Source of the DNA: Desulfonatronospira thiodismutans ASO3-1
Lineage (GTDB): Bacteria; Desulfobacterota; Desulfovibrionia; Desulfovibrionales; Desulfonatronovibrionaceae
Assembly: GCF_000174435.1 (NCBI RefSeq)
Contig: NZ_ACJN02000003.1
Coordinates: forward strand, 450,263 to 514,262
Reading direction: 5' to 3'
Length of the DNA stretch: 64,000 nt
The position numbers were made by a program, and so were the translations under genes. This document shows, one piece after another, positions 11,123-28,645 of the stretch (positions within the stretch are counted from its first letter, which is position 1; each line of letters opens with the position of its first letter). The notes under the pieces were generated by a model. It searched no databases. It worked only from the letters and a program-made list of their open reading frames with translations, and was not told the origin of the DNA.

Positions 11123-11814
11123 TTGGGTTGCGGGCATAGCCAGCTTTAGTGACTTACTCCTAAAACCCTGTCATAAAAAACAAGAAACTTAGACAGGATT
11201 AACAGGATTGACAGGATAAGCAATCTGCGGCCCCGGTGAAATCAGCTGCGCTGTCCTTCGGAATTTCACAGGGCAAGCCGGAAGCCGCAGATTGCATTAG
11301 CCATCCAGCACTCACTTTCTTCCGGCACCCATGAATGCAGGAAAAAAGTGAGTGCTGGAGTGATAACCTTTTGGCCTGGCTTCCGGCCAGGACAAAAATG
11401 TTTTTCTCTTAATCAATCTCTTAATCCTGTTAATCCTGTCAAAAAAGCTCTTTTCTTTATTGGGTTGCGGGCATAGCCAGCTTTAGTGACTTACTCCTAA
11501 AACCCTGTCATAAAAAACAAGAAACTTAGACAGGATTAACAGGATTGACAGGATAAGCAATCTGCGGCCCCGGTGAAATCAGCTGCGCTGTCCTTCGGAA
11601 TTTCACAGGGCAAGCCGGAAGCCGCAGATTGCATTAACCATCCAGCACTCACTTTCTTTTTCATGAGTGCCGGAAAAAAGTGAGTGCTGGAGTGATAACC
11701 TTTTGGCCTGGCTTCCGGCCAGGACAAAAATGTTTTTCTCTTAATCAATCTCTTAATCCTGTTAATCCTGTCAAAAAAGCTCTTTTCTTTATTGGGTTGC
11801 GGGCATGGCCCGCG
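11123..11814. repeat. Two tandem copies of a 335-bp multi-hairpin repeat
   Basis: Units 11123-11458 (336 bp) and 11459-11791 (333 bp) are nearly identical, and a third begins at 11792 and runs to the stop codon of the hydrogenase protease gene. Each unit has a core bounded by GACAGGATTAACAGGATT and its complement (11192-11440 and 11529-11772). Inside are hairpins CAATCTGCGGC/GCCGCAGATTG, CCAGCACTCACTTT/AAAGTGAGTGCTGG and TGGCCTGGCTTCCGGCCA. No plausible protein is encoded. Related single copies lie at 20863-21336 and 48775-49083. It could be a MITE or a transcribed structured RNA. Confidence 0.85.
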
Positions 11815-12360
11815 TTAGAGCTTTTGAACCTCACTGTTGACCAGTTGCAATACTTTTGTCTGCACCTCGTCCAGGGCCTTTTGCACCTCGGGGCTTAAGC
11901 CCTCCTGCATTTTTTCCGGAATATGCGCGGCACGGACCACGATGATGCTCAGCTTAATATCCGTGGTTTCCTGCAACTCTTTTAAAAGATTGGTGGTGGG
12001 AAACTGGTGCATGGAAAAATCAGAAATCTTTTTGGGATCCACCCGGGAGATGTCTATTTCCCGGACTTCACCGGGCTTTATGTCATCGTCTGTGGTAGTG
12101 TCGATAATTATTACCTGTTCCGGATGCTTGTCACTCAGGATCAGGTCAAAGAGAAGCGGTCTTATGGAAGTGCCCGCATCAATACAGGCCACTTCTTGAC
12201 CAAGATCCCCCCTGTCCTGAAGTGCCTTGATCGCCAGCGGCCCCATGCCGTCATCACCGTACAAGGTATTGCCGCAACCAAATACCACCACTCTGGCATC
12301 AAACATGCTAGACCAGTCCATTTCCCCTCCGCAACCAAAAAGTTGAGCCGCCTCCACCAT
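11815..12360 (-). CDS. Hydrogenase maturation endopeptidase (HyaD/HycI/FrhD family)
   Basis: Trims the C-terminal peptide from the [NiFe] large subunit after nickel insertion. 181 aa with the family opening VVVFGCGNTLYGDDGMGP and the later ACIDAGTS and QVIIIDTT strands; the acidic residues after GN and in the IDAG region are the known nickel-contacting sites. It is the last gene of the hdrA-mvhDGA operon and most likely processes MvhA. ATG 12360 has AAGGAG 11 nt upstream; an internal Met at residue 14 is an alternative. Confidence 0.88.
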   Translation of the reverse strand: MVEAAQLFGCGGEMDWSSMFDARVVVFGCGNTLYGDDGMGPLAIKALQDRGDLGQEVACIDAGTSIRPLLFDLILSDKHPEQVIIIDTTTDDDIKPGEVREIDISRVDPKKISDFSMHQFPTTNLLKELQETTDIKLSIIVVRAAHIPEKMQEGLSPEVQKALDEVQTKVLQLVNSEVQKL

Positions 12361-12446: not shown

Positions 12447-13895
12447 TTATGTCCCCATTGTATCCAGGACGTTGCCGCTGGAATCCAGAACCTTGAGCTC
12501 TACGTTTACGCCGCCATCCAGGCGGTGAGTAGCACAGCTCATTCACGGGTCGTAGGCGCGTATGGCCATCTCCACCCGGTTCAAAAGACCCTGATCGTAG
12601 TTTCCGTCCTTGATTACCGCCTTGGCCGCCTGACGCACCGAGAGGTTCATGGGCGCATTGTTGTGAGTGGTGCCCACAATCAGGTTGGCCATAGTCACAA
12701 AGCCATTGTCGTCTGTCTGGTAGTGGTGAATAAGGGTGCCCCTGGGGGCTTCCACACAGCCGACTCCTTCGCCTGCTCTGGGTTGAATATCCTGACACCT
12801 GATCTCCCGGCCGGTGATTTCAGGGTCGTTTAACAGCTCCTCAGCCCGCTCGCAGGCCTGAACCAGTTCGATGAGCCTGGCCCAGTGGTAAAGAAGGGTC
12901 AGGTGCGTGGGACGTCCGAATTCCTTGCGGAAGATGTCCAGTTCCTCCTGGGCCTTGGGAGTGGCCATCTGGTCGCAGACATTGATGCGGGCCAGGGTAT
13001 TGGCCCGGTACACACCCACGGGGTCGTTCTCGTCCAGTTTGAGGTCTCCCCATTTCTTGGCGTAAGGGAACTTGAGATAGGACCATGGCTCGGTATGTTC
13101 GCCAATGTAATTCATATACTCGGAGTACTTGAACTGGTCATACTCACCATTCTGGTCCATGAGCCTCAGTTCTCCATCATACAGTTCCAGGGCTCCGTCA
13201 GATGGACGAACAGTGCCCAGGTAGCCGGAAGGAAATACTCCCAGGACCTTGACTGCATCCAGGTACTTGGGAAAGACCTCTTCCCGGGCAAACTTGATGG
13301 TGAACAGGCTGAACTCTTTGAGTTCCTGGATGCCTTGCAGGATCTCTTTTCGCTCCTCTTCCTTGAGGGGCTTGGAAAAACCGCCCACCACACCTGCAAT
13401 GGGATGAATGACCTTGCCGGCGAACTTTTCCAGCATCATCTGTCCCTTGTAGCGCATGTGCACTACCTTTTTAGCCAGCTCAGGATTGGCCCCCACGATG
13501 CCCACCACATTGCGCACGGAATAGTCCGAGTCAGGTCCCAGGACAAAATCCGGGGCAGCAAGGAAGTAAAAATGCAGGATCTTGTCCGGGATGTAGGCCA
13601 TCATCTGGCACAGTTCCCTTAGCTTTCTGCCCGTGGGAGGCAGTTCCAGCCCCAGACATTCATCTGCAGCCTTGTTGGAGGCCAGGTGATGCTGCCAGGG
13701 GCAGATCCCGCAGATGCGGTTTACGATCCTGGGCACTTCCTCTACGGGACGGCCCAGTACAAATTGTTCAAACCCGCGCAGGGAGAGTACATGCAGCCTG
13801 GCATCGGAAACATTTCCGGTATCATCCAGGTGCACAGCCACGCTGGCATGCCCCTCTATGCGGGTTATGGGAGCTATATTCAGTGTCTTACCCAT
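12447..13895 (-). CDS. mvhA: [NiFeSe] hydrogenase large subunit MvhA, selenoprotein
   Basis: Carries the Ni-Fe site of an Mvh-type (group 3) hydrogenase that feeds electrons to MvhD and HdrA. 482 aa once the in-frame TGA at 12545-12543 is read as selenocysteine (Sec451). The N-terminal nickel ligands are in RICGICPWQHH (L1). The C-terminal motif reads DP-Sec-MSCATH, where non-seleno homologues have DPCxxCxxH. Reading to the next stop (TAA 12449-12447) adds 31 residues, of which the 25 after the His should be removed by the downstream protease. A hairpin 22 nt after the TGA has the bacterial SECIS form. The start lies 2 nt after mvhG, with its AGGAGG inside the last mvhG codons. Confidence 0.93.
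12511..12525 (-). promoter_or_regulatory. SECIS-like hairpin of mvhA
   Basis: In the mRNA, CCGCC-UGGAU-GGCGG begins 17 nt after the UGA, so the loop starts at nucleotide 23. Size, distance and a G-rich loop fit bacterial SECIS elements that recruit SelB. The loop UGGAU and the 22-nt spacing are the same as in mvhD. Confidence 0.75.
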
Positions 13896-13897
13896 GT

Positions 13898-14836
13898 CTA
13901 CCTCCTAACGGGTCTTTTGAGTGTGCCGTGGGCCCCGGAAAAACGGGCCAGGTATCCCCGGCGGTCCGGCATCTTGTTTGGATCAAACCCCACAGAAGCC
14001 AGGGCCCCCATATAATCCACCAGAGGCTTGGCACCTTTTCTCACAGGACCGTAGCATCCCCGGCAGGGCACCCTGGCGGAAATGCACCTGGGAGCCCCTT
14101 CTTTGCCTCCGCATCCTACTCCAGTGACAGGTCCCAGGCACAGAAAGCCCTGCTCCAGCAGGCAGCGCATCTCGTCCAGGGGCTTTTCCGGGTCGAATTC
14201 CGGGGCGGACAGCATGCGCTTTATGTCTGCAAGACCCTTCTTGCTTTCTCTTATGGTGGGACAGGCATCACAGACAGACTTTTCCGGCATCCGGTATTCG
14301 GTCTTGCCTTCCAGAAGGGCCAGGACGGCCCCGGCGATCCAGTCCGGATGCGGCGGGCATCCTGGCAGGTACAGGTCCACCTTGACCAGTTCATCCAGGG
14401 CATAACACTGATCCAGAAGAGGTGGAATATGCTCTGTTGGGTAGTCCGCAGGATCGGTTGTAGGTGAATCCTTGTAGGTGAACTTTTTTAGTTCCTCATC
14501 GGAATACATGTTGATCATTGCCGGGATCCCGCCGTCAGTGGCACAGGTCCCCAAAGCTATAAGGATCTGGCATTTCTTGCGCATCTCCAGCAGAACTTCT
14601 TTGTGCTCCTCGTTTCTGACCCCGCCGGAGACGATGCCCACCACCGCCTCGGGGATGCTCAGATGCTCTTCCTCACCGGTCTGCCCGAAATACTTCTTAT
14701 CCAGGATGACCGGTATATGCACAAAATCCAGGTTGTTTACCAGCAGATCCACCAGGACATCGCCCACGTTCAATATGGCTATTTCACAGCCGGCACAGGC
14801 ATTCAGCCATTCTTCGGCTACTGTTACCTTGGTCAT
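13898..14836 (-). CDS. mvhG: Mvh-type hydrogenase small subunit MvhG
   Basis: Iron-sulfur small subunit that passes electrons from the Ni-Fe site toward MvhD. 312 aa with no Tat signal, as expected for a cytoplasmic group 3 enzyme. Cysteines for three clusters are visible: EEWLNACAGCE (proximal) with ALGTCATDGG and LPGCPPHPDWIAGA, then the GFLCLGPVTGVGCGG and PCRGCYGP sets near the C-terminus. GGAGG lies before ATG 14836. Placed between mvhD and mvhA in the same operon. Confidence 0.94.
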   Translation of the reverse strand: MTKVTVAEEWLNACAGCEIAILNVGDVLVDLLVNNLDFVHIPVILDKKYFGQTGEEEHLSIPEAVVGIVSGGVRNEEHKEVLLEMRKKCQILIALGTCATDGGIPAMINMYSDEELKKFTYKDSPTTDPADYPTEHIPPLLDQCYALDELVKVDLYLPGCPPHPDWIAGAVLALLEGKTEYRMPEKSVCDACPTIRESKKGLADIKRMLSAPEFDPEKPLDEMRCLLEQGFLCLGPVTGVGCGGKEGAPRCISARVPCRGCYGPVRKGAKPLVDYMGALASVGFDPNKMPDRRGYLARFSGAHGTLKRPVRR

Positions 14837-14875: not shown

Positions 14876-15310
14876 CTATGCGCTCTGGGTTTCCTTGCTG
14901 ACCCGCAGGGGATTGGGCCCCAGGGACTTGATTTTATCGGTAAATTCATTGACCACCTTGGCGAACCTTGGTGCCTCTGCTGAAGATACCCAGTCCAGCC
15001 TGAACCTCTCGGGATCAATGTCCAGGTCTTCCAATACCAGCTTTATGGCCTGGGCCCTGGCGTATGCCTTGTGATTACCATCCAGGTAATGACATTCACC
15101 AAGGTGTCAGCCCAGGACCAGGACGCCGTCGGCGCCTTTTTCCAGGGCCTCCACCACCAGGTTGGGATGCACCATCCCGGAGCACATGACCCTGATGGCA
15201 CGCATGTTGGGCGGATACTGCAGCCTGGACACGCCGGCCAGGTCAGCTCCGGCATAAGCGCACCAGTTGCAGAGAAATCCCACAATGACAGGTTCTTTAT
15301 GTTCAGCCAT
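14876..15310 (-). CDS. mvhD: MvhD iron-sulfur subunit, selenoprotein
   Basis: Small [2Fe-2S] protein that links the hydrogenase to HdrA. It is 144 aa when the TGA at 15109-15107 is read as Sec68. Just after it the frame continues HLGECHYLDGNHKAYARAQ, the conserved MvhD block, so the family's GCHxGxCHY motif here is G-Sec-HLGECHY. The N-terminal part keeps FLCNWCAYAGADLAG and VMCSG. Without readthrough the protein would stop at 67 aa and lose half the domain. It starts 20 bp after hdrA with AAGGAG upstream and ends 39 bp before mvhG. Confidence 0.93.
15074..15090 (-). promoter_or_regulatory. SECIS-like hairpin of mvhD
   Basis: mRNA stem AUUACC-UGGAU-GGUAAU; its loop begins 22 nt after the UGA, the same distance and the same loop as in mvhA. 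This shared geometry across two unrelated coding sequences supports a real recoding signal. Confidence 0.75.
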
Positions 15311-15330: not shown

Positions 15331-18300
15331 TTAGACATTTTCCAGGACAGCATGTACCTGTGCCCTGAGCTGCTCATTGGTAAAACCGTGCACAAACACT
15401 CCCTGCTTGGGGCAGGTGGCTTCACAGATGCCGCAACCCTTGCACAGGGCCTTGTTGGTTTCGATTTTCTTGTGCTGAACACCCTCCACATCGTAGTCTG
15501 TCAGACCGATGGCCCCGTAAGGGCAGGTGTCCACGCATATGGCGCAACCGTCACAATTTTCCGTAACAAAGGACTTGATGGAGTCCAGGGGCATTACTGA
15601 CCTGGACAGGATTGTGGATGCCCTGGACACTGCGGCCTGGGCCTGGGCAATGCACTCGTCCACAGGCTTGGGGTAGTGGCAAAGTCCAGCCAGGAACATA
15701 CCGTCCACGCTCATGTCCACGGGCCTTAACTTGGCGTGGGCCTCCTGGAGAAATCCCTCGCTGTTGAGTCCGCACTTGTAGAGTTCCACCAGTTCTTTGT
15801 GTTCTGTAGGTACCACTGCTGAAGCCAGCACCAGGTAGCTGGGCCTTATTTCCACGTCCCGGTACAGGATGTGGTCCCTGGCCATCACCACCAGGTCGTC
15901 CCCGTCCTTGCTGACTCTGGGCTTGTTGTCCAGTTCGTACTGGATGAAGATGACCCCCAGTTCCCGGGCCTCTTTGTACAGGTCCTCCCGGGCACCGTAA
16001 GTCCTGATATCCCGGTAAAGAACATATACCGGCATTTTGGGGTTGGCTTTCTTCAGCTTGATGGCCGAATGCATGGTGTGTGTGCAGCACACCCGGCTGC
16101 AGTAGGGCCTGTCCGGCTCCCGTGATCCCACGCACTGAATAAAAACGGCCCCTTTGGCCTTGTCCAGGGCTGGTGCGTGCTCGGACATCTCCCGGTCGAA
16201 TTCCAGGTGGGTAAAGACCCGTTCATCCTGGCCATAGAGGTATTCCTGGGGTTTGTGTTCCTGGCCCCCGGTGCAGACGACAGCTATGCCGTACTTTATG
16301 GCCTTTTTCTCGCCGTTTACTTCTATCTCACTTACAAAATCGCCCACAGCGCCCTTATTGGTCTTGAGCTGGGCGTTTTTATATACTTTTATACTGGAGT
16401 GGTTTTCTACCCTGGAAATGAGCTCTTCCAGATAGGGCTTTATCTGTTCCCCGCGCCAGGTGGAGGCCAGGTTCCAGGCGTTGCCGCCCAGCTTGTCCGC
16501 CTTTTCCAGCAGGATGGTCTCATATCCCTGGTCAGCCAGTCCCAGGGCGCTGACCATGCCTGAGAGACCGCCTCCAACAACCAGCGCGCTCTGGTTGACG
16601 TTTACCGAGAGGTGCTCCAGGGGCTGGAGCATGGAGGCCTTGACCACTGCCATGCGTACCTGGTCCTTGGCCTTGTCCAGGGCCTTTTCAGGCTCCTTGC
16701 CGTGCACCCAGCTGTTCTGGTTGCGGATGTTGGCCATTTCAAACAGATACTCATTAAGCCCGGCATCCTTCATGGTCTCCCGGAAAAGAGGCTCGTGGGT
16801 CCTGGGAGTACAGGCCGCCACCACCACTCTGTTCAGGTTGTGCTCCTGGATCTTGTCCTTGAGCATGACCTGGGTATCCTGGGAGCAGGAAAAGAGATTG
16901 TTTTCCACCATGACCACGTTGGGCAGAGACTTGGAATATTCCACCAGCTCGTTGACATCTATGGTGCCGGCGATATTGATGCCGCAGGAGCACACAAAGA
17001 CGCCCACCCTGGGCTCTTCTCCGGACACTTCTTTTTCCGGTGGGAATGTTCTTTCCTGGGTCAGGCTTCCGCGCTGACTGCTAAGGGATATGGAAGCCGA
17101 AGCAGCGGCGCAGGAGGCATCGGTTACCGACTGGGGGATATCCTTGGGTCCCTGGTAACATCCACTGGCATAAATGCCGGGGACGTTGGTGGCTGACGGG
17201 GTAAAACTGGAACTGTCCGCGAATTTATACTTGTCCAGCTCCACTCCCAGCACCTCTGCCAGGTCAACGGAACTTTTGGAATTTTCCAGCCCAACCGACA
17301 GAACCAGGAGGTCAAACTCCTCCTTGACCCTCTCCCCGGTCTGGTCGTTGAAGTACTCCACCTTTACCCCGCAGCCGTCCTGTCCGGGATAAACTGTGTG
17401 GATACGGCTCTGGACAAAACGCACACCGTTTTCTTTGGCCTGCTCAAAGTACTTGTCAAACTCCTTGCCGTGGGTACGGATATCCATGTAGAAAATGGCC
17501 TGGTCCGTATCTCCGGTGGTATGCTCCGCCGTTACCATGGACTGCTTGATGGCGTACATGCAGCAGACCGAGGAACAGTAGCCGTTGTCGCATTTATTGA
17601 TGTTTCTGGAGCCTACGCACTGCAGCCAGGCTATCTTCTTGGGCTCGCTGCCGTCGGAAGGCCGGGTGAGATGTCCCATGCATGGACCGTTGGAAGAGAG
17701 AAGCCTCTCATATTCCATGCTGGTGACCACGTCCTTGAACTGGGAATAGGCATAGGTATCAAAGGCGGAAGGGTCAAAGGGCTTGAATCCCGGGGTCAAA
17801 ATGACCGAACCGACGTTTATTTCCTTGATTTCGTCCTGGAAATCCTGGTCCAGATCAATGGCCCCGGTGGGGCAGTACTTTTCACAGGCCCGGCATTTGC
17901 CCTTGCCTTTTTCGCCCTTGTTGCCGCCCTTGACAAAAAAGATACATGTCTCCTTTTCAATGGCGTACTTCAAGGGTACGGTCTGCCCGTACTTGATGTA
18001 TGCCGACTTGCGCTTGTCCAGCCCCTCGTTGAACTCGTCCGGAACTTTCTTGGGACACTTTTCCGCACACAGGTTACAGGCTATACATTTGTCCATGTCA
18101 ATAATGCGCGGCTTCTGGCGCACCTTGACGCTGAAGTTGCCTTCCCGGCCGCTGATTCCTTCCACCTCGGCCAGGGTCAAAAGCTCGATATTCAAGTGCC
18201 GACCGCACTCGACCAGTTTAGGCGAAATAATTCACATTGCACAATCGTTGGTGGGAAAAGTCTTGTCCAGCTGGGCCATGGCCCCGCCTATACCGGAAGA

Positions 18301-18411
18301 CTTCTCCAACAGATAGACATAGTATCCAGCGTCAGCCAGGTCCAGGGCTGACTGGATACCAGCGATTCCTCCGCCGACAACCATGACCGCGCCTACTTTT
18401 TCCGCGCTCAT
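15331..18411 (-). CDS. hdrA: HdrA-type flavin/iron-sulfur subunit, selenoprotein, double-length
   Basis: Electron hub related to heterodisulfide reductase subunit A; in methanogens HdrA takes hydrogenase electrons through MvhD and bifurcates them at its FAD. With TGA 18234-18232 read as Sec60 the protein is 1026 aa, against about 650 for usual HdrA. Residues 10-43 are the FAD motif [20 protein letters not shown], followed by NDCAM[15 protein letters not shown], where other HdrAs have Cys. Then come [12 protein letters not shown] and [13 protein letters not shown] clusters. The second half repeats the plan: [18 protein letters not shown], a second FAD motif [18 protein letters not shown], and a two-cluster ferredoxin tail ([28 protein letters not shown]). 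Start ATG 18411 has AGGGGG upstream. No HdrB or HdrC gene is adjacent. Confidence 0.92.
18194..18210 (-). promoter_or_regulatory. SECIS-like hairpin of hdrA
   Basis: mRNA stem GAGUGC/GCACUU closes a loop starting GGUC, the same loop core as E. coli fdhF. The loop begins 27 nt after the UGA, within the range seen for bacterial SECIS elements. Confidence 0.7.
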
Positions 18412-28165: not shown

Positions 28166-28440
28166 GGTTTGCTCCTTATATGTAAAGCTCTATTTCTCCG
28201 CGATCCAGCAGGCATTAGCTGCGATCCCGGAAACAAGATGCACAGATGCGCAAGGGGGCGGCTATGGGTGATGCGGTCAGCGTATTTTATTTTCCATAAA
28301 TGGATTAACGGTGATGATACGGCTTCACTTGAAAAAATACACCGTCATCAACATGAGAAGCTGTCGGAGGGTCCGGTAAGCTGCCGTAAAGGCATTGGAG
28401 GCAGGCCGATCCTGGGCAGAAGACGAAACCTGGCAAAAGT
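28166..28440. other. Gap between 6S RNA and rny
   Basis: 275 bp without a gene. It should contain the end of the 6S transcript and the rny promoter. ACGGTGATGATACGG and ACACCGTCATC near 28310-28350 form an imperfect hairpin; no clear terminator was identified. Confidence 0.45.
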
Positions 28441-28620
28441 TATCCCGGCAGGCCGTGTGGAGAATTATCTTGAACCTCGTTTTTACAGGTGGGCGCCAAA
28501 GCAGCTCCTTCAGGCTTCCCCGGACTCTGCGGGGCATGCACACCAGAACTGCGCAGCGGCTCCCTTGAGGTTAATGTTGGCTCAAAATAACTCATCTCCA
28601 TCACGTACCTGCCAGGAATA
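28441..28620 (-). ncRNA. ssrS: 6S RNA
   Basis: A 180-nt structure that mimics an open promoter and binds sigma-70 RNA polymerase. The closing stem pairs UCCUGGCAGG (28617-28608) with CCUGCCGGGA (28452-28443) over all ten positions. Inner pairing of GAGAUGAGUUAUUUUGA with UCAAGAUAAUUCUC continues the 6S arm. The apical part GUGCAUGCCCCGCAGAGUCC and GGGGAAGCCU has the same order as GAGCAUGCUCGGUCCGUCC and GAGAAGCCU of E. coli 6S. It lies 26 bp after zapA, the usual place of ssrS in Proteobacteria. Confidence 0.85.
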
Positions 28621-28645
28621 TTTCTATGCTGACCAAAAAGCCAGC

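Follow-up and report, generated by a model that had tools for sequence, protein, structure and literature searches.

In Desulfonatronospira thiodismutans ASO3-1, the product of mvhA is almost certainly the large subunit of a [NiFeSe] hydrogenase of the Mvh type (group 3c-like), a cytoplasmic enzyme linked to HdrA, with selenocysteine (Sec) at codon 451. The gene was analysed within a stretch of 64,000 nucleotides (the window) located on contig C3 of the 4.1 Mb genome. It lies at 12447..13895 on the minus strand, starts with ATG at 13895, contains a single in-frame TGA and ends with TAA at 12449-12447, giving a [NiFe(Se)] hydrogenase large subunit of 482 aa upon readthrough of the TGA. This TGA (12543..12545, minus strand) is codon 451 and, according to the alignment with the Sec of HysA and the Cys of MvhA relatives, corresponds to the nickel-ligand position of DPUMSCATH. 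The 31 aa between the TGA and the TAA are MSCATHRLDGGVNVELKVLDSSGNVLDTMGT; 25 of them follow ATH and form a C-terminal extension (12450..12524, minus strand), with its length taken from the reading frame and a protease gene adjoining. An earlier note on this DNA had described MvhA as ending in DP-Sec-MSCATH, with a TGA, a 31-residue continuation and a 25-residue tail, and all of these proved exact by coordinates and translation. The same note had placed the TGA at the fourth conserved cysteine, which has to be corrected: it is the first Cys of DPCxxCxxH and the third of the four nickel-ligand cysteines (RICGIC...DPUMSC). Both CxxC motifs of MvhA were identified, RICGIC and DPUMSC, and the fourth ligand cysteine (TGT, in MSC) is unaltered.

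The family assignment was made by profile and structure searches. MvhA matched the VhuA model NF041785 (E 1.2e-144) as well as PF00374. The score against the VhuA equivalog model was 482 bits, under the cut-off of 800, so the protein is a relative of VhuA and not a VhuA equivalog. The closest solved relatives were Mvh/Vhu/F420-type subunits; chain F of 5ODC (MvhA) was matched with E 1.1e-128 and aligns across the active site, and judging from these searches this MvhA is the nearest well-studied structure. Scores of 156 and 147 bits were obtained for the HysA family (NF045518), below its cut-off of 780 bits, and the genome search revealed no HysA above that cut-off and no Sec-HysA. Among named genomes, the nearest relatives are MAGs of Desulfonatronospira (94-96% identity in MvhA).

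The gene belongs to a minus-strand run of five genes identified with NCBIfam and Pfam, in the order hdrA, mvhD, mvhG, mvhA and maturation protease. The first one, hdrA (15331..18411, minus strand; HdrA2 NF040770, E 2e-269), encodes a double-length heterodisulfide reductase subunit A of 1026 aa with an in-frame TGA (Sec60) at 18232..18234 on the minus strand; the codon is TGA in the Sec-type loci holding this hdrA and TGC/TGT in the Cys type. It is followed by mvhD (14876..15310, minus strand; PF02662, E 9.9e-55), which encodes an iron-sulfur subunit of 144 aa and also contains an in-frame TGA (Sec68, in G-U-HLGECHY) at 15107..15109 on the minus strand. At this site all relatives carry TGA or TGC/TGT, and a scan of the own genome gave one TGA. 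Both genes, just upstream of mvhG-mvhA, are thus likewise predicted to encode selenoproteins, a point overlooked in the earlier note, and the TGAs define a hdrA-mvhD-mvhG-mvhA-protease operon with three Sec genes. The remaining members are mvhG, for the hydrogenase small subunit (13898..14836, minus strand; VhuG NF045875, E 5.9e-63; PF01058), and a gene for a hydrogenase maturation protease of the HycI/FrhD type (11815..12360, minus strand; TIGR00072, 104 bits with a cut-off of 47; PF01750). The arrangement of Mvh/Vhu enzymes was therefore found, with mvhD and mvhG adjoining mvhA and a link to hdrA. Neither hdrB nor hdrC is present in the Sec operon, so the operon does not hold the gene set of the Mvh-HdrABC bifurcating complex.

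The alignment with HysA called for in the earlier note was carried out, and it placed the Sec of MvhA in one column with that of HysA sequences of the same order, likewise encoded by TGA. In known [NiFeSe] enzymes, Sec serves as a terminal nickel ligand, and we take this column to be that ligand. Codon 451 was covered by 39 external loci: it is TGA in 22 of them, TGC/TGT in 17, and no other codon was observed. A maximum-likelihood tree separated the Cys rows from all 23 TGA rows (22 external ones plus the window), which formed one group with support of 97/96. The TGA rows come from Desulfobacterota (Thermodesulfobacteriota) lineages and from two MAGs titled only Deltaproteobacteria, and the Cys rows from Planctomycetota, Chloroflexota, KSB1, Neomarinimicrobiota, Actinobacteria and archaea, together with the paralogue of the own genome. 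In other assemblies of the same family as the window genome, each close orthologue covering the site has exactly one TGA, and the paralogues at 45-48% identity have none. The majority of the Sec-type loci carry TGA in all three genes, mvhA, mvhD and hdrA.

Some loci departed from this pattern. In two loci of Syntrophobacteraceae (L040 and L048), TGA was found in MvhA and HdrA together with a Cys codon in MvhD, which indicates that the three sites can switch between Sec and Cys independently. A locus of Fundidesulfovibrio agrisoli (L020, 2892-5803), unlike other Sec loci, consists of mvhG-mvhA(Sec)-protease; no mvhD or hdrA match was detected on its 13-kb contig, and its MvhA sits on a long branch of the tree.

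Comparative pairing revealed a SECIS-like hairpin, CCGCC-UGGAU-GGCGG, in mvhA (12511..12525, minus strand). Its 5-bp stem starts 17 nt past the UGA and its loop, UGGAY among the TGA rows, lies 22 nt past it. All stem cells (100%) are paired in the 23 TGA rows, window included, compared with 45% in 15 Cys rows, a value no higher than that of a control in which the partner was slid. Two pairs of the stem are compensated in the TGA rows, with C-G changing to U-A on both sides. The region also contains a Leu codon that is invariably CTG and a Gly codon that is invariably GGC in the TGA rows, and several codons are used in the Cys rows. The fold of the single sequence only mildly beats shuffles (z -1.65), and the support for the hairpin thus comes from the comparison across rows and not from the single-sequence fold. 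In mvhD, a SECIS-like hairpin (15074..15090, minus strand) has the same UGGAU loop, likewise 22 nt past the UGA. In hdrA, the SECIS-like hairpin (18194..18210, minus strand) has a GGUC apical loop 27 nt past the UGA; the z value of a 49-nt fold was -3.1, and 85% of its cells are paired in Sec rows vs 28% in Cys rows. No SECIS family was matched in the window by Rfam at the gathering threshold, a result of little weight given how short the hairpins are.

The Sec machinery was found in the genome with all family searches above cut-off: selA at 605 bits, selB at 377 bits and selD at 397 bits, the last one having itself an internal TGA. A tRNA-Sec was detected with 81 bits and a TCA anticodon (UCA in the tRNA). 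The marks of a bacterial selenoprotein are thus present, with a SECIS hairpin just past the UGA and selA, selB, selC and selD all in the genome. On these grounds, UGA 451 of mvhA is read as a selenocysteine codon. The suggestion in the earlier note of a [NiFeSe] Mvh-type hydrogenase is borne out by the homology with MvhA/VhuA, the Sec column shared with HysA, the SECIS hairpin, the Sec machinery and the HycI-type protease alongside.

Three other explanations were weighed. It is very improbable that the UGA is a real stop and that MvhA is a shorter protein, ending in its finished form at Pro450 without a maturation cut. Tail-less hydrogenase-like large subunits are known from other systems, but a protein ending at Pro450 would lose both C-terminal nickel-ligand cysteines. 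In addition, seven comparisons gave dN/dS of about 0.2-0.35 for the 31 codons past the UGA, which thus evolve as coding sequence under purifying selection; the hairpin is conserved only alongside TGA, and the protease gene adjoins mvhA. Hardly any credence can be given to a sequencing or assembly error, or a genuine nonsense mutation, that changed TGC/TGT into TGA in mvhA. The genome is an assembly and the codons are one base apart, but the frame continues under selection, two further TGAs occupy known Sec sites of the same operon, and the identical TGA occurs at 22 other loci from independent assemblies of several families; sequencing error, which the earlier note had named as the finding that would overturn its reading, is excluded by these assemblies. 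A genome-wide recoding of UGA (code 4 or 25 type) to Trp or some other standard amino acid would equally leave the frame open past the UGA, but it is scarcely conceivable given that the relatives without TGA always have Cys and never Trp at the aligned residue, that tRNA-Sec, SelA, SelB and SelD are all encoded, and that internal TGA codons are absent from the Cys paralogue genes of this genome.

With UGA 451 read as Sec, a mechanism can be proposed. SelB and Sec-tRNA(UCA) would bind the hairpin just past the UGA and Sec would be inserted at codon 451 in vivo; insertion at this codon is strongly supported by the sequence data. Sec451 would then act as a terminal ligand of the nickel through a Se-Ni bond. 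Once nickel is in place, the 25 residues past His457 are expected to be cleaved off by the HycI-type protease encoded next to mvhA. Judging from the protein families, electrons from H2 would pass from MvhA through the MvhG clusters to MvhD and the HdrA flavin, and these two downstream carriers, MvhD and HdrA, would also contain Sec. The Sec complex may also carry out electron bifurcation.

The basic finding is already known to the field, as the operon was published in 2006, a Sec-containing MvhA2DG in 2009 and a review in 2026. Operons of the order hdrA-frhD-frhG-frhA, with Sec in HdrA, FrhD and FrhA, were reported from archaea and Deltaproteobacteria by Zhang et al. (2006; PMC1794560), who also suggested transfer between both groups. 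The operon of Syntrophobacter fumaroxidans and Desulfotalea psychrophila (PMC1794560) shares with the present one the gene order and the three selenoproteins (HdrA, FrhD/MvhD and FrhA/MvhA), and FrhG/MvhG contains Cys in both cases. In contrast, the bacterial operons of that study also include glpC, which was not seen in the adjacent genes here; their hdrA is doubled or split into separate genes, whereas here it is one fused gene for 1026 aa; and only here does the maturation protease follow. For Desulfobacterium autotrophicum HRM2, Strittmatter et al. (2009; PMC2702500) reported a cytoplasmic selenocysteine-containing MvhA2DG beside Sec-HdrA1, so that in this sulfate reducer, too, a Sec Mvh hydrogenase is encoded in a cluster with Sec-HdrA. 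That enzyme is clustered with HysAB (PMC2702500), unlike in the present genome, where no HysA scored above the family cut-off. The 2026 review counts MvhA, MvhD and HdrA among the established families of selenoproteins and calls the operon of three genes typical (PMC13188914).

The periplasmic [NiFeSe] HysAB of Desulfovibrio and Desulfomicrobium has Sec in the identical column (DPUxxCxxH), but HysA is about 30% identical to the window MvhA and HysAB has no HdrA link. The oxygen-related data stem from these periplasmic enzymes and not from Mvh; oxygen tolerance and fast reactivation, brought up in the earlier note, are extrapolated to the present enzyme. In methanogens, VhuU is the small, separate subunit that contains Sec, and the SECIS lies in the 3' untranslated region. 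The window MvhA differs from the Vhu of Methanococcales in that the large subunit is undivided and the bacterial SECIS is inside the gene. Common to both are the Mvh type, the Sec nickel ligand (UxxC) and Sec in VhuD and HdrA (PMC13188914, PMC2702500). A further likeness is that Vhu is accompanied by a Cys counterpart, Vhc (PMC13188914, PMC2702500), as the present operon is by a Cys set in the genome.

This full Cys set is located on contig C2 (L064, 3800-10806), in the order hdrA-hdrC-hdrB-mvhD-mvhG-mvhA-protease. Its hdrA encodes 670 aa, its hdrC-like and hdrB-like genes were named by reading the sequences and not by family search, and a formate-dehydrogenase-like gene adjoins it. Possibly, this Cys-only operon is the selenium-free counterpart of the Sec operon. 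It may also be, although we consider it rather doubtful, that the Sec complex is a flavin enzyme in its own right, linked to H2 and with an electron acceptor of its own, and that the Sec and Cys sets are switched by selenium supply like Vhu/Vhc in Methanococcus. The idea of a separate enzyme is drawn from Sec at three successive electron-transfer sites, from an operon without hdrBC and from the complete Cys set with hdrBC elsewhere.

An annotation that takes UGA as stop only would truncate MvhA, MvhD and HdrA; read correctly, they would make up a single hydrogenase complex containing three selenocysteines. Of the three large subunits of hydrogenases found in the genome, only the window MvhA has a TGA. 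With only one Sec large subunit and a Cys version in the same genome, the role of selenium in Mvh-HdrA of sulfur bacteria could be tested within one organism.

Two non-coding features of the window were also recorded. A non-coding repeat of ~335 bp is present in two tandem copies at 11123-11818, in the interval that separates the protease gene from lepA; full or partial copies occur at some 40 places of the genome, as in an interspersed element. A 6S RNA (105 bits) was located at 28438-28621 on the minus strand and is ordinary.
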